DNA of 64,000 nucleotides, taken from Porpolomopsis calyptriformis (lineage: Eukaryota > Basidiomycota > Agaricomycetes > Agaricales > Hygrophoraceae). Each line of letters opens with the position of its first letter. Positions within the stretch are counted from its first letter, which is position 1. Positions 1,647 to 15,668 of this stretch are shown piece after piece. Below the pieces are notes generated by a model. It was given only the letters and a program-made list of their open reading frames with translations, was not told where the DNA came from and made no database searches. A program made the translations under genes and the position numbers. The stretch spans positions 1,426,001-1,490,000 of the forward strand of contig OX621167.1 of the NCBI GenBank assembly GCA_951640195.1, given 5' to 3'.

Positions 1647-3586
1647 GGAGTCCGAACGCTTTGCCTACCGTTACGGACGTATCTACTCAAGAATGTACCA
1701 CCACACCATACAATCTATTTCAAATTCTTGGTACTCTTGAAGAAGGCAATCTCGGACTCATTTTGGACGTTTGGATTGAAGCTACCGACACTGGTCGATG
1801 TGTTCCGGCCACTGCTCTGGTTGATAGTGGAGCCTCTGGAAATTTCATAGACGAATCCTTCGCAACTCGCCACAACTTTACTCTAACACGATTGGAAACC
1901 CCAATCCCCGTACGGAATGCCGATGGATCTGAAAACCAAGGTGGACCCATCGAGAACGATATTGATATTTGGTTAGAGGCTCCTGGAGAACACAATGAAC
2001 GGATCCGATTGGAAGTGACCGATCTCAGATCTAAGATGGATATTATCCTCGGCTTCCCATGGCTCAAAAAGCACAACCCCAACATCGATTGGAAAGAGGC
2101 AACACTGGCTCTGGATAGCAAAGATTTCCCTCTTCCACGATGGATAGTGAAAGATGCGGAGTGACCGGGAATGGAATTGGTCACACTGGCCATGAATCGA
2201 CGTGTATCGAAGTCGGATGAATCCCGAGCCAGCACGGTGGAAGAAGATATGCGAAAGTTTGTACCGGAGGTATACTGGAAAGGCTATTCTAGTGTCTTTG
2301 CCAAAGAATCCTTCGACCGCCTTCCACCACATTCGGAATTCGACCACGCCATAGAACTGGATGAAACCTTCAAACCAGTCAAAGGCGCGAAATATGCGAT
2401 GTCCCCTCTTGAGATGGATCACTTACACAAGTTCATCAATGAAAACTTATCTACTGGACGAATACGAACTTCCAAATCGAAACAAGTCTCTCCGTTCTTC
2501 TTTGGAAAGAAAGCTGAAGAAGTGAATGCTAAAGGTAAGAACGCTGGCTTACGCCCTATCGAGGATTATCGCTATCTCAATGAACACATGGTTCCTAACC
2601 ATTATCCCCTTCCTCTCCTTCATCAAATACTCCAACGACCTAAACTCCTAACAGCGTCTCTGTTCACGGTCATGGATATCTGATGGGGATTCAACAACGT
2701 CAGGATCAAGGAAGGCGATGAATGGAAAGCTGCTTTCATTACTGAAGCAGGTGCCTTCAAACCCACCATCATGTTCTTTGGTTTGCGGAACTCACCAGCC
2801 ACCTTTCAACGGATGATCGACACAAGATTCAAAGAAGTCCTGGACTCTGGAAATGTTTTCATTTATATCGATGATGTGCTTGTTTGTGGAGATGATTTAC
2901 AGGAACTGCGATGCTGGACCTTCAGAACTCTAGATATCATGAAGAAACACAGACTCTCGTGTAAACCCGTCAAATGCCAGTTCGAGAAGGAAGAAGTCAT
3001 TTATCTCGGAGTCGTCCTATCCAAAGGACAAATCACCACTAATCCGAAGAAGGTCGACGCTATCATGTCTTGGCCTATTCCAGAAACAGTGAAACAGCTC
3101 CAATCCTTCTTGGGCAGTGCGAACTTTTGGCGAAGATATATCAAAAGTTTCTCCAAAGTCGCTATCCCTCTCTATGAACTCTTACACAATGAAACTGTGT
3201 GGGAATGGACTCCTCGGAGACAAGAAGCCTTCGACAACATCAAATCCCTTTTGACGAATGCACCCGTTCTTCATATTCCTGATTGCGATCTCCCCTATTG
3301 CTTGGAAACCGACGCCTCTATCATTGGAATCGCAGGAATACTCTCCCAACTTCACGACGGTCACTGGAAACCTGTTGGATATCACTCAAGATCTACCTCT
3401 CCTGCCGAAAAGAACTACCCTACCCACGATCTAGAGCTCTTGGTGATCATTGATTCCTTTAAACAATGGCGTCATCTTCTCGAAGGAGCGAGACACGATA
3501 TTCTCATCAGGACGGACAGTTTGGCTTTACGATACTTTTCCAAGAACCTTCGCCTATCGAATCGCCAGACTCGTTGGTCTGAGTAT
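1646..3586 (+). pseudogene. pol: Element A Pol, part 1: protease, reverse transcriptase, RNase H (broken)
   Basis: The frame gives an aspartic protease with DSGAS near 1830 and a typical LGFPWLKKHNP segment near 2050. Reverse transcriptase follows, with the IDDVL catalytic motif near 2867-2881, then RNase H with ETDAS near 3306. TGA stops at 2162-2164 (between protease and RT) and 2681-2683 (in RT, where gypsy elements usually have an arginine) break it. Both could come from CGA by one C-to-T change. The RNase H sequence stops abruptly at 3591, where element B is inserted, and resumes at 12358 in the same frame. Confidence 0.9.
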
Positions 3587-3591
3587 CTGTC
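3587..3591. repeat. Target-site duplication CTGTC, left side of element B
   Basis: CTGTC precedes the TGTCAC end of element B and recurs at 12353-12357 right after it. Removing one copy and the element restores the RNase H reading frame of element A. Confidence 0.95.
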
Positions 3592-3944
3592 TGTCACAAC
3601 TGTAGTTGCAAGTCTTTTCGTCAATCACAAGGCAGGCCTTGGAGCTTAATAAGTCTAGTAGGATGTAGAAGAAAGTCCTGACGGGGACGTCCTCGTAAAG
3701 GGTGATGATTCCTTCTGAGTTAAGTTTTACTTCTACAAAGAAGTTGTTCTGCGAGTTAAATCCGTTGCGTGCCTCTGCTGAGAGTTTAGGGAATATGGGC
3801 ATGAACGATTGGCTCAGTAGTTATGGGTTTATATTTCTCTTTTCTTGTTCTGGTAGAAAAGAAGTCTGATGATTCTGATTGCGTTCGTGCTACTACAAGT
3901 AATCTCACAGGAGGACGAAGTGATGATCCGCTTCACCCTCAGGG

Positions 3945-3952
3945 TTTATATA
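3945..3952 (-). promoter_or_regulatory. Candidate element promoter TATA box in left LTR of B
   Basis: TATATAAA on the minus strand lies about 350 bp before the inner LTR edge. The same box is at 10996-11003 in the right LTR, where it points toward gag. It faces away from the plus-strand TATA box at 4255, about 300 bp off. Confidence 0.45.
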
Positions 3953-4051
3953 GTATTTCTAAAATAGGAGTCACTATGAGTCAGCTTCCGCAGTCACCCC
4001 ATTTTCTATTGTTCACAGCCTCCAGTTTAAGGTTTGTCATTGTTCTTAGTC

Positions 4052-4114
4052 ATACTGTGGAAGGCTGTGTTGTTTTGATGACTCAACTCTATTGGGCATA
4101 GCCTTCCGCAGTAT
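4052..4114. repeat. Stem-loop in left LTR of B, between the divergent TATA boxes
   Basis: The arms are 15 nt and the loop 33 nt. This copy has one mismatch in the left arm (ATACTGTGG against the perfect ATACTGCGG of the right LTR). Confidence 0.7.
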
Positions 4115-4254
4115 CAGGCTGTGCTGTCTCATGACTGGTTCCTATTGTTCTTCTAGTCATGAGATCGCCGCTGTTTCTATCTCTTGTCCGGCGTATCGGG
4201 TTTCTCTTCTTTGACTGAGGAACCTCCTTTTGGTCTTCCCTTTGTGTCTGAGCA

Positions 4255-4261
4255 TATAAAA
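4255..4261 (+). promoter_or_regulatory. TATA box of the LTR-encoded gene, left copy
   Basis: CATATAAAAGG lies 50 nt before the ATG at 4311. An in-frame upstream ATG at 4281 would fall at or before the expected transcription start. The identical box in the right LTR is at 11306-11312. Confidence 0.6.
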
Positions 4262-4310
4262 GGTGTGGGGTTGTATCCCTATGCTTCAGTTCAATCTTTG
4301 TCAATTCATC

Positions 4311-5146
4311 ATGACTCCCTCCCACCAAGGCCACTACGTCCGATTCTTCAAGCAGTCTGGAGTGGTGCACTGCACCGCTCCTGTCTTCCTCGATTGTGAT
4401 TCGTTTCATTACTACCTTCAGCACATCCCTTCCGACGCCGACCTCTGCTGGTCTTCCTTCTCCTGTTTTGCTTGCGGTGGCAAGCATAAGGTCAGAAAGT
4501 GTCCGTATGTTCGCTGGCCAATCCAGCATGTTTGTGGCTTAATGGAGGATCCGCTTGGTATGTATTTTGTTTTGTCTTTATTAGTCCGTGTTTATTGATA
4601 ATAGGCTTTTTCCCTTTTTAGCTTGGGATGATGACGCCCCTCCCCCTACTTCCCAGCTCCCTTTGGAGGAGCAGGTCAATTGGGGGTCCGACAAGTGGGC
4701 TGACTCTCTTCCTTCCATCAAGAAGGAGGCAGTTGACTGGGCTGCCAGTCCCCCTTTCCATCCTTGGACGCCTGGTCCATTGAGTGTTTTGTCTAGTGGT
4801 AACGCTCTCAACTCTCTCGGTCTCTTCATAGTTGCTGATTTCTTTGCCTTTTTTAGTTGAAGATTTGTCATTGTCGTTGACTAATGTCAACGTCAAGATC
4901 GAGGAGGAAGAAGTTCCTCCCAGTTTGTTGTGGAGTCCCACCAACGATTGGTTGGGTGAGGAAGCGAGAAAGATAGTGATGGGTTTCGTCAAAGGGAAGG
5001 CTGCCGAGTTGCAGGCCTCCAGTGGTGACACCAATGGGGCAATTTACTGGGGTAATAAGTTGGCCGCATTAGATGGTCAAGTAGTCTCGAGTTTTGTAGA
5101 GTTCTTGAGGGACAGTATGGTGCAAGAGATTGCCAAGACAGACTAG
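4311..5146 (+). CDS. LTR-encoded spliced gene, zinc-knuckle-like protein (left copy)
   Basis: The gene lies wholly inside the LTR, antisense to gag-pol. Exons are 4311-4557, 4622-4798 and 4857-5146. Both introns (64 and 58 nt) are GT-AG with pyrimidine-rich ends, and the second has a CTGAT branch-type motif. Phases agree, giving 237 residues. Near residue 62 is a cysteine-rich C-x2-C-x3-H-x4-C motif, one residue shorter in spacing than the retroviral knuckle. The C-terminal half is acidic then helical. A TATA box (4255) and AATAAA (5204-5209) frame it. The right-LTR copy is also open through all exons. I recognise no family. It may be a captured host gene or an element regulator. Confidence 0.7.
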
Positions 5147-5203
5147 TTTAGATAGTTAGTCAGACATGGACTCCCCCTCTTTGTACAAATAGTTTCCACT
5201 GCC

Positions 5204-5209
5204 AATAAA
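5204..5209 (+). terminator. Poly(A) signal AATAAA of the LTR-encoded gene, left copy
   Basis: AATAAA stands 58 nt after the stop codon and is followed by an A-rich stretch, still inside the LTR. The right copy is at 12255-12260. Confidence 0.55.
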
Positions 5210-5301
5210 GACAGCCCCCTTTCCAAAGAGAACAGGCAAAGAAAAGAAAAGAACGAAGAAAAGAGAAGAATTTCAAGAGAGTGAACGCCAATTTCATGAC
5301 A

Positions 5302-5313
5302 TTACCCCCCTCC
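5302..5313 (-). other. Polypurine tract of element B
   Basis: The minus strand reads GGAGGGGGGTAA right before the LTR start TGTCATG. This is the plus-strand DNA primer site of LTR elements and confirms that B is oriented on the minus strand. Confidence 0.85.
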
Positions 5314-8300
5314 TAGAGTCCACCGGAGCCAAGCGAGGATGGACCCAAAGCTCTTCTCCTCTCGAATTTAAAGTCGGGATGCTTGTCATGAAATTCCGAA
5401 ATCTTCTCCGCTGCATTTTCCAGATTTCTCTCTGGCTCCCAGGAGTTTTCCGAAATTGAGTACCCTTTCTATTGTATCAAATATTGTTTTTGGTTTCTCC
5501 AGAGCCTTCCATCCAGGATTTGGTCAACCTCATATTCCTCCTCCCCTTCAACCTCTATTCCCCCAGGTTCTTCCAATCTTCTCCCTTTTATCTCTGAGTC
5601 CTCATAAGTGCTGAGCAAATTTCCATGAAAAACCGGATGTATTCGATACGTTTTTGGTAATTTCAATTTGTAGACTTGGTCTGAGAGTTTCCTTTCTATT
5701 TCGAAAGGCCCCAATTTCTTATCTGCCAGTTTTTTGCTAGGAGCAGTAGTGTTGATGTTTGTTGCATCCAGCCAGACCTTATCTCCAACCTCCCTACGTA
5801 CTCCTTCCGTTTTCCTGTCGTAATAGTCTTTCATTGTATTCTGGGCTAACCTGATTGATGCCTTGATTTCTTCCTGAACTCTTTTTATCTCTTCGGTCAG
5901 ATCTTGGGCTCTCGGCACTTCAGATTTTCCAGCCTGAGGGATCGCCATCTTCGGATGATACCCCCTTGCAGCGTAGAATGGAGTTCTTTTTGTGGATGAA
6001 TTTTCATTGTTGTTGTGGGCGAACTCTGCCATTGGTAAGAACTTGGCCCAGTCATTTTGTCGATAATTGCAAAAGGTTCTGAGGTACTGCTCTAGTTCTT
6101 GGTTAATGCGTTCAGTTTGTCCATCAGTTTGAGGGTGATATGCTGTTGAATAGGCTCCTTCGATCCCTAGTTTCTTGAAAATTCCCCTCATCAGTTTCAA
6201 TGTGAACTGTGTTCCACGGTCTGAAATCATCTTTTCCGGGACCCCGTGTAATCTCCAAATATGATTCATATATAGCTTTATCATCTCCTCTGTGTCCACC
6301 GCAGTGGTCGTTGGTACAAAATGAGCTTCTTTTGTTAATTGATCCACCACAACCCAGATGGCATCGTAACCTTCCGACTTGGGTAGTTCCATAATGAAGT
6401 CATTTGTCACTGTCTCCCATGGTCTTTCTGAAGGCAGTATCGGTACCAACTTTCCTTTGGTTCTGTGATAGGATCTTTTCTTTCGATTACAGGTGTCGCA
6501 GGTTTTCACGTAATGTTTGACATAAGTCGTGATTCCTGGCCACCAGTAATTTCGGGTGAGTAGTTCCAGCGTTCGGTATTCTCCTTGATGCCCTCCTTCC
6601 AGGGTGTCATGATGCAGCTGTACTAAATCCCTCCTTATTTCTTCATCTTTTGGGACATAGACTTTTCCTTTGAAAAGAATTAGACCATTCTCGGTGTTCC
6701 AGTCTTCCAATCCTTTTCTGAGTTTTCTTGGCGTCCCTCCTTTGACTATTTTCAAGGCTTCTTCGATTTCAGAGTCAAAGGCTTCAGAGGCTCGAATTCT
6801 TTGTAGTATAGGGTGATCTTTGACTGTTGTCATATGTCCTCGAAATAAAGCTTTTATTTTGAAAACTTCTGGCTTCAATAGAATCTGTCCCTGGTTTTCT
6901 TCTCCTTCTATCTGGTAATCTGCTCGTCTTGACAATTTATCTGGTTTTCCCCCTAGTCTTCCAGGCTGATGTTTGATTATATAATCAAATCTTGTTAGGA
7001 ATAAGCTCCATCTTGCTTGTCATCTTGTTAGGGTTTTTGCTGAGGCAAAATACTGCAGATTCAGATGATCTGATAAGATGGTTACTTGATGTTTCGCCCC
7101 TTCCAGATAATGTCTCCATTCTTCAAGTGACGCTATTATGGCTAACAGTTCTTTGTCATAAATTTCATAATTCCTTTCCGCGTCATTCATTCCTCTTGAG
7201 TAAAAGGCTATAGGATGTATCTTTCCATCTTTTCCATATTGTGAAATAATAGACCCAATGGCGTAATCTGAGGCATCACATTCTAAGATGTATGGCTCTT
7301 CTGGGTTCGCCATTGCCAAAATTGGTGCTGTGGTGAATTTCTTTTTAAGGAGTTGAAAAGCTTGTTCCTGTCTCTCTCCCCATTCCCATTTCTTCCCTTT
7401 CCTTAACAGCTCTGTGATTGGTCTCACTGTTTTGGAAAATTCAGGAATGAAGTGTCTATAGAAGTTTGTGAATCCTAAGAAGGATTGCACTTCTTTTACT
7501 TTTCGTGGTGTCGGCCAATCAATTACTGCTTTGACTTTTCCTGGATCCATCTCAATTTTCTCCTGGCTAATAAGGTGTCCTAGATATTCCACAGAGTCTT
7601 TGAAAAAGTAGCATTTTTCTGGTTTGAGAAAGAGATCGTTCTCCCTTAACCTTTTGAGTATTTCTTGGATATGTCCTAGTTGTTCCTTTTCATCTTTCGA
7701 ATATATAAGGATGTCGTCAATGTATATTTCAACATATTTTCCAATTAGGTCACGGAAAATAGTATTCATCATTCGCTGAAAAGTTGCTGGGGCATTCGTT
7801 AACCTGAACCACATTACTTGTGGTTCAAAGAGTCCTTCCTTTGTATTAAAGGCAGCTTTCCATTCGTCCCCTTCCTTGATCTGAATATTGTTATATCCCC
7901 ATTGCACGTCCAATGTGGTAAAGACTTTTGCGCTAGCCAGGTTATCGAGTAGTCTCTGTGTCAATGGTAGAGGGTATCGATCTTTCACAGTTGCATCATT
8001 TAATCCCCGATAATCCACTATGAGTCTTAGTGTCCCATCCTTTTTCTTGATAAAGAAGACTGGTGAAGCAGCTCGAGATTCTGATTCGACTATGTACCCC
8101 TTCTTTAGGTTTTCAGCAATGAATTCTTTCAGTGCTTCAGCCTCAATTGGTGCCATTGCATAAGGTTTTTTATTGGGTAGTGGTTTTTCGGGTATAAGGT
8201 TGATTGGGTGATCATACATTTTTCTAAGTGGTAGTCTCTCCGATGCCTTTTTATCAAAGACGTCCCTATAGTCATGTAGAGACTTTGGTACCAGTTCTTC

Positions 8301-8963
8301 AAAGGTTTTTGCCCCTTCTTTGATGGTGGTCAGTTCTGCTACTTTCTGAGATATAGTGAAACCTGCTGCTATTCATTTGTCTAGTCCTTTCTTCGGAATC
8401 AAGATCTGGTCGCCTTTTTCGGGTTGATATTCTCCTAGTACATTCCATTCTCGTATCCAGGTATTGTCTAGATCTGGACTCCAATATTCCATTTCTGTTT
8501 CTTCCATTCTAATTTTCTGGATCTTCATTTTCTTGCAGTTCCTTCCTTTCTTGGTTTGACAAAACTTTGGGCACCGGCTAAAGGTAATTTTCTCTGTTTC
8601 CCAGTTGATTTCTGGGTTGTGTCGCTTTAACCAGTCTATTCCAATGATTAAGTCATCTTCTCCTATTCCTGCTATAAGGAATTCTTCTTTCATTTTATGT
8701 CCTCCCAAGTCTAGGTTAAGTTGAACCTTCTGAGTGATTTTTCCCATTCGATTCATTGTTTGGTTGACATTCGTAATTTTGATGGGTTTTTTTAGTGGTG
8801 TAGTTTTCAGTTTCTGATTTTTTACCACCTTTGGTGAGATAAAGAGTGAGGATGCTCCGCAATCAATAAGGGCTTTGGTCGTCCATTCATTTTTTCCTTC
8901 ATGAAGGTTCACTTGAGTATAAATCTGTCCTTTATTAGGGTTGGCGCTAATGTACATAGTCAA
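5313..8963 (-). pseudogene. pol: Element B Pol: protease, RT, RNase H, integrase, chromodomain (broken)
   Basis: Protease (about 8963-8376) has DCGAS in place of the usual DSGAS. Reverse transcriptase (from 8219) has YIDDIL near 7710, and RNase H has ECDASD near 7270. Integrase (6935-5469) has an HHCC zinc region near 6590-6490 and a DD35E core (VVVDQLTKEAHF, SDRGTQF, AYHPQTDGQTERINQE). The frame is cut by TGA at 8375-8373, TGA at 7022-7020 and TAG at 5471-5469. The last falls inside the chromodomain where a tryptophan is expected, and the domain reads on in frame to 5313. The first in-frame codon after gag lies in a different frame from gag. Confidence 0.9.
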
Positions 8964-9019
8964 ATCTTTGTCCTTTAAGTCCTTATTTGGTCAGGCTAAA
9001 GAAAATGCAGAGTCTTTCT

Positions 9020-10450
9020 TCAGCCTTGAGCAAAATCCTCCTCTCCCTCTTCCTTTTCTTCTTCATCAACTTTCTTAGCTTGGATATTTCCAAATTTCTT
9101 TCTAGGGCAAGCTCTGGCCATATGACCTGCTTGTCTACAGAAGAAGCATTGCCCTTCTTTCATCAGGCTTTTTCGTTCTTCCTCTGTTAGTTGAGCGACT
9201 TTGATGGCTACAGGTTTTTGGTAGCCTCCGGTGGGCTCGACTCTTCTTTTTTCTTTGGCCCTTATTAAGATTCTTCCTTCAATGGTTAAGGCCACTTGCA
9301 ATAATTCCTGCAAGGTTCCGGGCCTCTCAACGGTAACCATGATATCTTTGATCTGATCTTTGAATCCTTGGTAAAATATCTCAGCGAGGGTCTCTTCTCC
9401 ATATTCGCATTGGAGCGCCTTTTCGAGGAATTTAGCATAATAATCCGTGATCGATTTTTCCTGTTTAATGGTCCTTAGGGCTTCTCGTGCATCCTGCACT
9501 TCATTAATTGGTCCATATAGAATGGTTCCTCATTCTAACAGTAGTCTCCAATCTCTCAGCATCAGAGATTCATGTGGAAGATCTCTTGTAACTAATATTG
9601 CGTCAGCCCACGGCCTTGCAAGTCCAGTAAACCAATTCAATAAGTAAAGACATCGGTTTCTGGAATTAGTTGTCTCATCGAAGAAGTCAGGGAAATGGAG
9701 GAAATAGTGGTAGGCTTGGATGAGGAATGTTCTCCACTTGCTCCTGTCTCCATCGAAATGGTCCGGCTCTGTCAGCTTAGGAATCCTTATATTTGGAACT
9801 CCCCCTCCAGCTGGTCCTGGTCCTGGTCCTCCTAAGGGTGGTCCTAGGGGTGGTCCTCCAGGTGGCTGTCCTCCAGGTGGTCCTCCAGGTCCTGTGGGTT
9901 GCCCGCCTCCTCCTATTGATCCTCCAGGGGGTGGTGCAAATGGATTTAATGTCGGAGTTTTCTTGGGACTTCCTTCAGGTGGCTCCTCTCTTCCTTTCCC
10001 TTTTGGTTCCTTGGTTGGTGTTTCCATTCCCAAGTGGGCAATCGGAATCTTCGGTCCCCATCCGGTGAGCCCTGTTTTCTCTATTGGTTTCGTCGGTACT
10101 GGGTCTAGTAATCCAGTTCGACTCGCATAAGTTGTGCTTTCCCTTCCTATTCCCCTTCCTCTGCTACTTAATGCTCTGCTCGCTTCAAGTTCTCCTCCTG
10201 CCTTCCTTTTCAATTTCCTTCCTATCATGGTGAAGAGCCCCTTCTCCTTTTCAGTTTCATCATCTCCATCATCTTTGGGTTCATCTGCTGTCCTAGAGAA
10301 ACTGGTGGTGGACCCCCAGAATACTCCTTCAGGTGTCTCTTTTTGGGGTTCACTCTTGGAGCTTGCAGGAGTCTCCGGGTCCTCTATTCCTACTTGGTAA
10401 CTGAGCGCAGTTACAGTGGTATCTTTCAGATCCTGGTATGGTTGACTCAT
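9020..10450 (-). pseudogene. gag: Element B Gag (one internal stop)
   Basis: Reading starts at ATG 10450. The N-terminal third is charged and low-complexity. A P/G-rich block (about 9800-9930 on the plus strand) precedes the capsid region. A TGA at 9532-9530 interrupts the capsid in frame, then the frame continues through a zinc knuckle C-x2-C-x4-H-x4-C near 9150-9105 and an acidic E-rich tail to the stop at 9022-9020. Conserved gag sequence on both sides shows that the stop is a lesion and not a domain end. Confidence 0.85.
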
Positions 10451-11102
10451 AGTTAGGGTCTTCGTGTATATCTATTTGAATTCTAATTGGCTTATTCGCA
10501 AGCTTATGGTAGGCCAAGTAGTTTATGCTTCCTTTAGCTGCTGAAAAGAATAACGTTTCTCGTCTAAGGAGATGGTATCATTTGTCGTCCAATATTAAGC
10601 AGGATAACCAGTCTGCGGTGTGATTCCAACACTTCGTCCTAATGTCACAACTGTAGTTGCAAGTCTTTTCATCAATCACAAGGCAGGCCTTGGAGCTTAA
10701 TAAGTCTAGTAGGATGTAGAAGAAAGTCCTGATGGGGACGTCCTTGTAAAGGGTGATGATTCCTTCTGAGTTAAGTTTTACTTCTACAAAGAAGTTGTTC
10801 TGCGAGTTAAATCCGTTGCGTGCCTCTGCTGAGAGTTTAGGGAATATGGGCATGAACGATTGGCTCAGTAGTTATGGGTTTATGTTTCTCTTTTCTTGTT
10901 CTGGTGGAAAAGAAGTCTGATGATTCTGATTGCGTTCATGCTACTACAAGTAATCTCACAGGAGGATGAAGTGATGATCCGCTTCGCCCTCAGGGTTTAT
11001 ATAGTATTTCTAAAATAGGAGTCACTATGAGTCAGCTTCCGCAGTCACCCCATTTTCTATTGTTCACAGCCTCCAGTTTAAGGTTTGCCATTGTTCTTAG
11101 TC

Positions 11103-11165
11103 ATACTGCGGAAGGCTGTGTTGTTTTGATGACTCAATTCTATTGGGCATAGCCTTCCGCAGTAT
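11103..11165. repeat. Perfect 15-bp inverted repeat in right LTR of B
   Basis: ATACTGCGGAAGGCT (11103-11117) and its exact reverse complement (11151-11165) are separated by 33 nt. It lies between the divergent TATA boxes at 10996 (minus) and 11306 (plus), so it could be a shared regulator site or a transcript hairpin. Confidence 0.75.
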
Positions 11166-11361
11166 CAGGCTGTGCTGTCTCATGACTGGTTCCTATTGTT
11201 CTTCTGGTCATGAGATCGCCGTTGTTTCTATCTCTTGTCCGGCGTATTAGGTTCCTCTTCTTTGACTGAGGAACCTCCTTTTGGTCTTCCCTTTGTGTCT
11301 GAGCATATAAAAGGTGTGGGGTTGTATCCCTATGCTTCAGTTCAATCTTTGTCAATTCATC

Positions 11362-12197
11362 ATGACTCCCTCCCACCAAGGCCACTACGTCCGATTCTTC
11401 AAGCAGTCTGGAGTGGTGCACCGCACCGCTCCTGTCTTCCTCGATTGTGATTCGTTTCATTACTACCTTCAGCGCATCCCTTCCGACGCCGACCTCTGCT
11501 GGTCTTCCTTCTCCTGTTTTGCTTGCGGTGGCAAGCATAAGGTCAGAAAGTGTCCGTATGTTCGCTGGCCAATCCAGCATGTTTGTGGCTTAATGGAGGA
11601 TCCGCTTGGTATGTATTTTGTTTTGTCTTTATTAGTCCGTGTTTATTGATAATAGGCTTTTTCCCTTTTTAGCTTGGGATGATGACGCCCCTCCCCCTAC
11701 TTCCCAGCTCCCTTTGGAGGAGCAGGTCAATTGGGGGTCCGACAAGTGGGCTGACTCTCTTCCTTCCATCAAGAAGGAGGCAGTTGACTGGGCTGCCAGT
11801 CCCCCTTTCCATCCTTGGATGCCTGGTCCATTGAGTGTTTTGTCTAGTGGTAACGCTCTCAACTCTCTCGGTCTCTTCGTAGTTGCTGATTTCTTTGCCT
11901 TTTTTAGTTGAAGATTTGTCATTGTCGTTGACTAACGTCAACGTCAAGATCGAGGAGGAAGAAGTTCCTCCCAGTTTGTTGTGGAGTCCCACCAACGATT
12001 GGTTGGGTGAGGAAGCGAGAAAGATAGCGATGGGTTTCGTCGAAGGGAAGGCTGCCGAGTTGCAGGCCTCCGGTGGTGACACTAATGGGGCAATTTACTG
12101 GGGTAATAAGTTGGCCGCATTAGATGGTCAAGTAGTCTCGAGTTTTGTAGAGTTCTTGAGGGACAGTATGGTGCAAGAGATTGCCAAGATGGACTAG
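11362..12197 (+). CDS. LTR-encoded spliced gene, zinc-knuckle-like protein (right copy)
   Basis: This is the second copy of the 4311-5146 gene, with exons 11362-11608, 11673-11849 and 11908-12197 and the same splice sites and length (237 residues). Amino-acid differences seen include C to R, H to R, T to M, V to A, K to E, S to G and T to M. No stop or frameshift has arisen, while gag and pol of the same element have collected at least four. The knuckle-like cysteines and histidine are kept. Function is unknown. Confidence 0.7.
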
Positions 12198-12352
12198 TTT
12201 AGATAGTTAGTCGGACATGGACTCCCCCTCTTTGTACAAATAGTTTCCACTGCCAATAAAGACAGCCCCCTTTCCAAAGAGAACAGGCAAAGAAAAGAAA
12301 AGAACGAAGAAAAGAGAAGAATTTCAAGAGAGTGAATGCCAATTTCATGACA

Positions 12353-13954: not shown

Positions 13955-14122
13955 TTCTATTCATTCGTTTGTCATCATCCCATCTGCCAAGAATTGACCT
14001 CTATTTTTAGAACCACTCCTTATAAACTGCCGGACGTCTCTACTTTCCTTCACGATTCAAATTACGCGCCTCTTAACAACAACTCAAAGACCACTGAACC
14101 AAAACGTCGCAATAACTTTGCC

Positions 14123-14860
14123 ATGCCCGCTACACGATCCACACGGTCTCCCTCCCCTCAAGTCACCATCCGGCGCTCTAGACGAATCCCTTCGTCTGCC
14201 ATCCGCTCCCCTACTCCTGGTCCCTCCACTTCTGCTTCCTCCCCTCGACAATTACGTTGGCAGGCTCGCGCGCACGCAGAAGATTTCTTTACTGTTCAAA
14301 CCCCTCCCCCCGAAGACCCTGCCATCACCATCTCCCACCTCACGGTTCACAGCAACAGTGTTAGCAACTGGAATCGTGAACTTCGTCAAGAACGCAAGGT
14401 TTTACAAGCTGAACTCAAAGCGTCAGAGAAAAGTGCTTTATTTTGGAAGAATCGTTGGGACCAGAGTGAGTTGAAGGTTTGGGAGCTCCAGCGTCAGAAG
14501 AGACGAACGTGGGTCGACTGCTACGATGTCACCACCCGCGCCATCATCGCCAAACTCGTAGAAGAAAGTCGTCGGTCTGAACGGCTCACCAGGGAAGATT
14601 TCCTCCGAGCCCAACGAGACCTTGCGACGACGGAGACTTTAATCAAGTATGGGAAAACGGTTGAATATCCCATCAACGTCGACCTAGAGTACCCGATCGA
14701 TGATGACGACGTCGCAACAGTCCAAGCCCCCTCCCCCGTCGAAGTGACTTCAGAAGTCGAACTCATCGCTTCCCCCTCAGTGGCCGTCGAGGCCCCCGCC
14801 ACCGAGGAAATCCTGACTCAGGCCTCAGAAAATGAAACAACCGACACCGCCCAAGTTTGA
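14123..14860 (+). CDS. Third ORF of element A, coiled-coil protein of unknown function
   Basis: This ORF lies between integrase and the 3' LTR, the place where env-like genes sit in some elements. From ATG 14123 it has 245 residues; the frame is open from 13994 without ATG. The N-terminal third is basic and rich in S, P and R. A charged helical stretch (residues about 75-135) looks like a coiled coil. The tail is acidic. No signal peptide or membrane segment is seen, so it is not an envelope protein. It has no stop, unlike pol. A splice-acceptor-like tract ending TTTTTAG (14004-14010) lies just upstream. I recognise no family. Confidence 0.6.
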   Translation: MPATRSTRSPSPQVTIRRSRRIPSSAIRSPTPGPSTSASSPRQLRWQARAHAEDFFTVQTPPPEDPAITISHLTVHSNSVSNWNRELRQERKVLQAELKASEKSALFWKNRWDQSELKVWELQRQKRRTWVDCYDVTTRAIIAKLVEESRRSERLTREDFLRAQRDLATTETLIKYGKTVEYPINVDLEYPIDDDDVATVQAPSPVEVTSEVELIASPSVAVEAPATEEILTQASENETTDTAQV

Positions 14861-15148
14861 AATTCGGGATGAATTTCCTTAAAAGCCGAGGTGTATGTCA
14901 CGGTCGTAATTTTCTTCATCTTCTTTATCTTATCGTATGCAAACCTATCTCTTATCTTGGGATTCCCCCACTCGTTACCGGGATTCCCCATTGCCTTTCT
15001 CCGGGATTCCCCATTACTTTACCTATATGCGGACACACTTCATTTCCGTTATGTTTCAACCCCTTTATGATTCATCATCGATCACGATGACTCATTCTTA
15101 TCTCTACCTCATGTTATGTCGCACTGACTCACACAGATAAGTAGTCAG

Positions 15149-15156
15149 TATATAAA
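15149..15156 (+). promoter_or_regulatory. TATA box of element A LTR
   Basis: TATATAAA lies 35 nt before the 11-nt motif complementary to the primer binding site. The solo LTR keeps the same spacing (16384 to 16418), which supports this as the start region of the element RNA. Confidence 0.7.
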
Positions 15157-15183
15157 GAGTACCTCTTGTACGTATCAGACCTT

Positions 15184-15194
15184 AAGTCTGATTC
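15184..15194 (+). other. Putative 5' end of element A RNA (self-primer)
   Basis: AAGTCTGATTC pairs over 11 of 11 bases with the primer binding site at 58-68. It is conserved in the solo LTR at 16418-16428. Confidence 0.6.
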
Positions 15195-15294
15195 CTCGTT
15201 AGCCTACTCATAACAAGGACTTGGAACCATCCTCTATATCTCTTGGGACAGAACACCCGAAGTAAAACGCGTTCCGAACAACTGGTTTATAACA

Positions 15295-15668
15295 CTGTTA
15301 CCCACATTGTTCAGATTGTACAAGCAACCCAGTTGTATGGTCCTGCAGACCGCCATCATAAACAGCACTGTTGCCCTGAAAATGTACACTGCCTAGTGCC
15401 CAAAAATTTAATAAGCAACAACACACCTTTGAGAAAGAAATAGTTCCACAACAAAGGTTGGCGCCAATGGTCATGTTCATCTTGACCCACGTTCTTTTAT
15501 CCTGAGATGCCTGAGAGGTTTGCTTGAGAGGTAGATGGTAGATGAGTGATGCGTGCATGCGTGACGATGCATGGATGTAAATAGGATGGGACAGGTGCAT
15601 ACAGCATCACTACTTCAATGGTGTGGCCATTCCGGAGATGCTCTTAGCCCTGTGTTCTCAAGGTCAAC
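15295..15668. other. Stretch without recognised gene between LTR and F-box relic
   Basis: I see no convincing coding sequence. It probably holds the upstream region of the F-box gene. Confidence 0.4.

Follow-up and report, generated by a model that had tools for sequence, protein, structure and literature searches.

A predicted spliced antisense gene within both long terminal repeats of a fungal Ty3/gypsy element

It has been reported for several retroelements with long terminal repeats (LTRs) that genes are encoded antisense to gag-pol. HBZ of HTLV and APH-2, APH-3 and APH-4 are deltaretroviral antisense genes, described as spliced and transcribed from an LTR promoter, and APH-3 and APH-4 act on LTR-driven transcription (PMC10186651). 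The Boty element of Botrytis cinerea carries the antisense gene brtn, which, according to papers citing its description, is internal and lies outside the LTR (Zhao et al. 2011, via PMC7264820, PMC8365987 and PMC4227169). In plants, the antisense open reading frame (ORF) aORF-3R (gene23 of Grande, RIRE2, TRP28 of Retand) is described from most family copies, between pol and the 3' LTR; in Grande it has an upstream promoter of its own, and a nuclear role is suspected (PMC7264820, PMC11963269). For crapaud of Podospora, an element with a chromodomain, variation mostly confined to U3, recombination between U3 types and solo LTRs have been described (PMC10787394). The locus analyzed here is in a 64,000-nucleotide stretch of the genome of Porpolomopsis calyptriformis (assembly GCA_951640195.1, contig OX621167.1, positions 1,426,001 to 1,490,000, forward strand; hereafter the window), where a minus-strand Ty3/gypsy element (element B) contains in each of its LTRs a gene antisense to gag-pol.

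The gene lies on the strand opposite to gag-pol, has three exons and a predicted product of 237 amino acids (aa). Its parts, and the LTRs holding it, are the following:

3592..5301, minus strand: 3' LTR of element B, 1710 bp, TGTCA...TGACA; holds gene copy 1
10643..12352, minus strand: 5' LTR of element B, 1710 bp; holds gene copy 2
4255..4262, plus strand: TATA box of the antisense gene, TATAAAAG; ATATAAAAG in 43 of the 51 copies having any base there
4311..4557, plus strand: exon 1, ATG at 4311, with the zinc-knuckle-like C52-C55-H59-C64
4558..4621, plus strand: intron 1, GT-AG, 64 nucleotides (nt); 63-65 nt across 42 copies
4622..4798, plus strand: exon 2; its segment at about 4676-4752 occurs in very different in-frame versions
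4799..4856, plus strand: intron 2, GT-AG, 58 nt; 54-58 nt across 42 copies
4857..5146, plus strand: exon 3 and stop (5144-5146)
5204..5209, plus strand: AATAAA poly(A) signal of the antisense gene, within the LTR; AATAAAG in 48 of 54 copies
11362..12197, plus strand: gene copy 2 in the 5' LTR, exons offset by 7051; open

This anatomy had been proposed in an earlier reading of the window (the original prediction), and its coordinates for the LTRs, TATA box, ATG, exons, introns, stop and AATAAA, the length of 237 aa and the motif C52-x2-C55-x3-H59-x4-C64 were all found to be correct. The second open copy, claimed for the right LTR, is present at 11362-12197, and the existence of the antisense gene in both LTRs is confirmed. 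The same prediction had taken it as support that both window copies are open although gag-pol of the element is broken. As proof this was rejected: the two copies differ at 10 ORF sites, and about 4% of transitions (30 of 711) lead to a stop, thus two open copies beside a decayed gag-pol are expected by chance. The gene nevertheless exceeds chance expectation by far, and the proof rests on the comparison of many copies.

Probes allowing up to three mismatches detected exon 1 at 239 and exon 3 at 234 places in the 33.5-Mb genome, a count that misses more diverged copies; the reversed-pattern controls had no match. Forty-one copies were aligned, 39 of them the best matches to the window copy, which biases the set to well-kept copies, and two from fetched loci. 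Addition of 13 copies, seven chosen for divergence and six as supposed LTR pairs, gave an enlarged set of 54. The 5'-truncated L036, the L019 LTR interrupted by another (3314-6723), the partial LTR L028:1-769 and loci duplicating others were excluded from the codon counts. The ORF is intact in 30 of the 41 aligned copies and in 32 of the enlarged set.

Differences between copies were counted as nonsynonymous (N), synonymous (S) or stops. Old alleles, i.e. those found in at least 6 of 41 copies, comprised 19 N, 61 S and no stops (transitions), which is 0.17 of the neutral N/S of 1.88. Alleles found in one to five copies were distributed differently (73 N : 61 S : 9 stops; P = 1.5e-5 versus old alleles), those in two to five copies reaching 0.80 of neutral. 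Differences between the two LTRs of one element postdate insertion, because both LTRs are identical when inserted. In five presumed LTR pairs (1.4-2.2% apart) such differences were near neutral, with 35 N : 21 S : 3 stops (P = 7e-6 versus old alleles). The pairs were presumed by orientation, by spacing (11 kb in the case of L058/L059, otherwise about 7.05 kb) and by the partner being the nearest copy of the first member. L061/L062, whose members are 14% apart, was dropped as a pair, and its 42 N : 55 S : 2 stops were subtracted from the raw 77 N : 76 S : 5 stops. L060 contained no LTR, which left the element concerned with a single known LTR. These counts show strong purification of the old alleles, the protein being kept by selection in the transposing lineage, and near-neutral decay of the copies once inserted. 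Such a pattern is expected where a function serves the element rather than the host.

Among the pair differences 98 of 101 were transitions and 69 of 101 stood in a CpG/TpG/CpA context, pointing to methylated-CpG decay as the source of the post-insertion changes. The neutral N/S at CpG sites alone is 1.28-1.47, far above the 0.31 of the old alleles. The ratio of nonsynonymous to synonymous divergence (dN/dS) was determined for 66 pairs of 12 representative copies; it was 0.10-0.34 where dS exceeded 0.1, and the five pairs of least distance gave 0.27-0.57. As a yardstick, diverged pairs of the reverse transcriptase (RT) gave 0.14-0.18. The original prediction had named dN/dS near 1 and stops in most LTR copies as outcomes that would speak against it; dN/dS was well away from 1 and 32 of 54 copies were intact. 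Counted by exon (alleles in at least 8 of 54 copies, a threshold that omits the rarer diverged exon 2 versions), exon 1 had 13 N : 30 S (0.22) and exon 3 had 10 N : 34 S (0.16), both being constrained, and the N:S counts in three pieces of exon 2 were 0:2, 2:10 and 5:4.

Reading frame and splice signals were also conserved. In the 41 copies, a single distinct insertion or deletion (indel), an in-frame +3, was found in the exons (714 sites), compared with five in introns 1 and 2 together (122 sites), 13 in the 3' untranslated region (UTR; 155 sites) and seven between the promoters and the ATG. Of the 13 copies added later, three had overlapping frame-shifting deletions of 16-19 nt in exon 3 and one had lost 1 nt in exon 1. 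The three deletions, in the diverged copies L049, L050 and L051, are at a common place and represent either a common dead haplotype or a changed splice variant. Donors are GT in 54 of 54 copies at both introns, acceptors are AG in 53 and 54 of 54, respectively, and the branch-point-like word YTRAY is present in intron 2 of all 54 copies, 12-32 nt from the acceptor, and in intron 1 of at least 52. Common variants per site amounted to 0.28 and 0.48 in the introns, 0.15-0.23 in the exons, 0.27 in the 3' UTR and 0.08 in U5/R. Taken together, the comparison supports an antisense gene in U3 that is complete, spliced and protein-coding, and from these signals we infer its transcription, splicing and translation.

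The 237-aa product has a CCHC zinc-knuckle-like N-terminus, an acidic, Trp-rich middle and a C-terminus that is helical in a low-confidence model. The spacing of the cysteine motif, CX2CX3HX4C, differs from the CX2CX4HX4C of the retroviral zinc knuckle, and no Pfam match to zf-CCHC was obtained for the product, whereas gag of element B does match this family. Since C46, C52, C55, H59, C64 and C75 are invariant in 54 of 54 copies, the N-terminus is suggested to bind metal and nucleic acid.

Flanking sequence was read for 24 full LTRs. An exact 5-bp duplication borders 17 of them at either end, which identifies these as solo LTRs, and the gene is open in 15 of the 17. The claim that the gene is doubled by the LTRs held, as it was found in each LTR, and solo LTRs retain it. 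Two of the 17, at G000:C9:444362 and G000:C1:3657144, have identical flanking bases (CATACCAG...ACCAGATA) and may be one insertion that was later duplicated. Exon-junction probes of the genome detected no intronless (processed) copy, one of the junction probes having 0 matches. The lone match with three mismatches (C7:66618) is inside an exon 3 match and corresponds to the final part of intron 2, with no junction.

Three further features of the LTR relate to the promoters and to the start of the genomic RNA:

3945..3952, minus strand: sense (gag-pol) TATA box, TATATAAA; 15-nt context the same in 31 of the 31 copies reaching that far
3912..3922, minus strand: 11-nt word CACTTCGTCCT, exact complement of the presumed primer-binding site beside the 5' LTR, 30 bp downstream of the sense TATA box
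4052-4069 and 4097-4114, no strand: arms of an 18-nt inverted repeat, 89% complementary, between the divergent promoters

The antisense and sense promoters are arranged head to head, with their TATA boxes about 300 bp apart. Tf1 is self-primed, the 5' end of its RNA serving as primer over 11 nt. By analogy, 3912-3922 may be the 5' end of the genomic RNA, with R starting near 3922 and priming of the Tf1 type; the primer site adjacent to the 5' LTR was read in one element only. An 11-nt complement was reached by chance in 5 of 2000 shuffled LTRs. The exact word is present in 16 of 31 copies; 13, the window 5' LTR included, have one G-to-A and two have one C-to-T change, which may be CpG decay. 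If the self-priming reading is right, the antisense gene is apparently wholly within U3, because the start of R is then placed near 3922. The 18-nt inverted repeat is a possible operator. On both arms an outer base pair is apparently swapped in C9_1342k and L051, and it is unmatched in C2_2369k. A second inverted repeat (4127-4164, 10 nt, 100%) is also between the divergent promoters.

In the reading that we regard as probable, the U3 gene is a real two-intron, protein-coding accessory or regulatory gene, antisense, with its own promoter and terminator, most likely encoding a nuclear nucleic-acid-binding regulator; the nuclear location and the regulatory role are proposals. Transcription would start from a TATA promoter belonging to the gene, placed head to head with that of gag-pol, and would end at the gene's own AATAAA. 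The sense genomic RNA would hold the introns reverse-complemented and would stay unspliced ahead of reverse transcription; judged from the anatomy, the introns would outlast the RNA stage because the gene is antisense. The genomic RNA has one U3, from which the gene would be copied into both LTRs, and a solo LTR left by the collapse of an element would still contain it. In the nucleus, the 237-aa product would regulate the element, e.g. by acting on the divergent U3 promoters or on the genomic RNA, and would favour the element lineage encoding it.

Several observations weigh against this reading. Singleton alleles (28 N : 31 S : 4 stops, ratio 0.48) are less neutral than the LTR-pair changes, and remain so without the two most diverged copies (19 : 22 : 3, 0.46); probably some singletons predate insertion and belong to lineages sampled once. 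Constraint is slight at the 3' end of exon 2 (5 N : 4 S). Of the 54 copies, 22 are broken, four through frame-shifting lengths, and the noncoding U5/R rivals the exons in its lack of indels, with none (323 sites, reached by fewer copies). All copies compared are from a single genome. A protein acting in trans from some 240 copies is expected to be under weak selection per copy, therefore the constraint would need cis-preference or past phases with few copies. No relative of the product itself was found: for the window copy Pfam gave no match at E up to 10, bZIP included, and for five copies one chance-level match (YmjE, E 1.7); protein database searches found no homologue; the best match among solved structures (PDB) had an E of 0.087 and was taken as noise; and the 26 pattern matches in viral contigs included no relative. 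With AlphaFold, exons folded singly gave a predicted local distance difference test (pLDDT) score of 40 for exon 1, which is unusable, and of 58 for the weakly helical exon 3, so that no function is backed by a fold. In a control search, the integrase of element B had 3841 matches in 7994 scored candidates; as named fungal proteins were among the 120 listed, fungal elements are present in the protein database. Judging from source tags, many database entries look like unspliced metagenome ORFs, and a spliced gene may be under-represented among them.

The preferred reading is an accessory regulator resembling HBZ and APH, and its main rival is restraint of copy number, which is possible though clearly less probable. 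According to this rival, antisense mRNA and/or protein restrains the element: LTRs, including solo LTRs, would make U3-complementary RNA (RNA interference) or a repressor of the sense promoter, and the output would rise with copy number. The antisense transcript would indeed overlap genomic-RNA U3, solo LTRs retain the promoter, the gene and its poly(A) signal, and there is an inverted repeat between the divergent promoters. However, an effect of RNA only leaves the codon-level selection and the conserved splice sites unexplained, and selection within the element lineage could hardly maintain a restraint harmful to its carrier unless the cost to the host falls.

A very unlikely explanation is that U3 captured a whole cellular gene, introns, promoter and terminator included, which has merely been copied along since. 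The TATA box, introns and AATAAA do resemble a whole genomic gene, but old alleles at 0.17 of neutral N/S and near-neutral changes after insertion mean that selection acted after capture. Protein searches found no homologue outside this genome; within it, where 150 of 568 candidates were scored, a diverged host copy could hide. It is least credible of all that conservation is due to regulatory DNA in U3 or to a sense-strand ORF, and that the antisense frame is incidental. The gene is overlapped by two long minus-strand (sense) ORFs, and of the alternative frames one antisense frame, which shares the third codon positions, has an old-allele ratio of 0.19. Both remaining forward frames and the remaining two antisense frames have ratios above 2.5. 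Of the two minus-strand ORFs, one is unbroken in no more than 7 of 24 copies and the other in no more than 17 of 41, and both were rejected as conserved products; the change of phase between exons, the nearly indel-free exons and the kept splice sites and branch words all fit a spliced plus-strand frame.

Comparison of the RT with the antisense gene revealed a mismatch of divergence between RT and U3. RT pieces of the window element and of L064, L065 and L066 show a dS of 0.02-0.04, compared with 0.25-0.31 for the antisense genes in their LTRs; for the relative L063 the values were 0.14-0.16 and 0.14-0.27. The U3 cassettes thus appear to predate their present elements, and since near-identical RTs carry diverged gene versions, they have probably been shuffled by recombination. 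The LTR copies C1_2907k, C14_1215k and C2_2384k differ from the window 5' LTR by 0-7% in the initial 700 bp, comprising U5, R and the promoters, and by 4-19% in the gene and 3' UTR, and C2_2369k differs by 7-10% around 3992-4291 and by 1-3% over most of the 3' two thirds of the gene. The most diverged copies, C13_865k, C4_372k and L049, are about 9-16% different in U5 too; U5 divergence was read in LTR copies only. All four combinations occur in 8611 of 13695 site pairs, to which recurrent CpG change contributes. The exon 2 segment at 4676-4752 has in-frame versions 32-39% apart in five copies; among copies that are otherwise similar, one version has a KKE motif and one is without it.

A bolder proposal, which we consider rather unlikely, is that the LTR is a mobile gene cassette and the roughly 240 dispersed LTRs, solo in many cases, a still-coding family, whose protein would sense copy number and act on the U3 or genomic RNA of allele-matched elements, the diverged, recombining cassettes on a homogeneous gag-pol being specificity types. 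If true, an element with a new U3 allele would evade repression accumulated through older solo LTRs, and fungi would have a protein-based, LTR-encoded system of immunity and copy-number control.

Element B is nested inside the RT/RNase H region of a second gypsy element (element A), with the 5-bp duplication CTGTC on both flanks; in L048, an adjoining copy of element A, the paralogous target site is without interruption. The two LTRs of element B have 29 mutual differences, every one a transition. The remaining part of element B is:

5469..10450, minus strand: decayed gag-pol, several ORFs with gag/zinc knuckle, protease, RT/RNase H and integrase (Pfam)

The Pfam domains are of the gypsy type and in the order gag - protease - RT/RNase H - integrase. 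The integrase (488-aa ORF) has a Pfam match to SH3_Tf2-1 and none to Chromo; PF00385 is present in nine of its ten best database relatives. Among the 120 listed relatives, those with names comprise Tf2-type proteins from Ceratobasidium and Rhizoctonia, hypothetical proteins from Moniliophthora and Pleurotus and a single protein from Parasitella, by which the host is probably a basidiomycete. The element is read as belonging to a Tf1/sushi-like fungal Ty3/gypsy family. Element A has a sense ORF of 288 aa (window 13994-14860) between pol and a short 3' LTR (inferred at about 15120-15296). It is 81-86% identical to the L048 copy (1774-2642), with differences of 43 N : 79 S : 1 stop, had no Pfam match at E 0.01, and may be a second accessory gene, on the sense strand. 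Directly upstream of element A is another element A 3' half (L048:1-3000 and window:1-200), the short LTR between them apparently being common to both, in tandem.

The usual view takes LTRs for regulatory DNA and a solo LTR for a dead scar. In this family, a solo LTR can amount to a complete copy of the gene, and the retrotransposon would thereby leave a dispersed protein-coding gene family. The antisense layout would show a route for retroelement introns through the RNA stage, and the locus offers a test case for the recurrence of antisense genes in animal, plant and fungal retroelements. It also suggests that the diversified U3 of other fungal elements, such as crapaud, is worth scanning for hidden spliced genes.

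How does the antisense gene compare with the known systems? The sag gene of MMTV is a protein gene in the U3 of the LTR, in sense orientation and expressed within viral mRNAs; by description, it is alike in U3 location and opposite in orientation. The body of the HBZ gene is located outside the LTR, and HBZ is a bZIP protein, unlike the product described here, which has no bZIP match. Like HBZ and the APH genes, as far as they are described, the present gene is antisense to gag-pol; an LTR promoter and splicing would be further likenesses, predicted here from a TATA box and GT-AG introns conserved in the copies, and a role like that of APH-3 and APH-4 in LTR-driven transcription is proposed. 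Those genes are expressed from the 3' LTR (PMC10186651), whereas here the whole gene and its terminator are in the U3 of both LTRs, and the element is Ty3/gypsy. Like brtn, the gene is an extra antisense gene in a fungal LTR element; the Boty integrase has a chromodomain, and brtn, going by the citing papers, is set apart by being internal rather than in the LTR; the citing passages make no mention of introns. As described for aORF-3R, an antisense ORF is kept under constraint in most copies, a likeness that is found here, but aORF-3R is between pol and the 3' LTR whereas the present gene is entirely inside both LTRs; introns are unmentioned in the main texts on aORF-3R (PMC7264820, PMC11963269). 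The likeness to crapaud, as reported, consists in U3-limited variation, U3 recombination and solo LTRs in a fungal LTR element; there, U3 variation is discussed as regulatory, no U3 gene is reported, and the word 'antisense' is absent from the main text (PMC10787394). In the literature searched (titles and abstract openings, most subscription papers being outside its coverage) no fungal LTR with a spliced antisense gene lying wholly within it was found. The novelty that the original prediction had claimed for fungal gypsy LTRs stands to this extent, and has to be narrowed in that antisense genes in fungal gypsy elements are known from brtn of Boty. As far as these sources reach, LTR elements with antisense genes have been described from animals, plants and one fungus, and a spliced fungal case located wholly within the LTR appears to be new.

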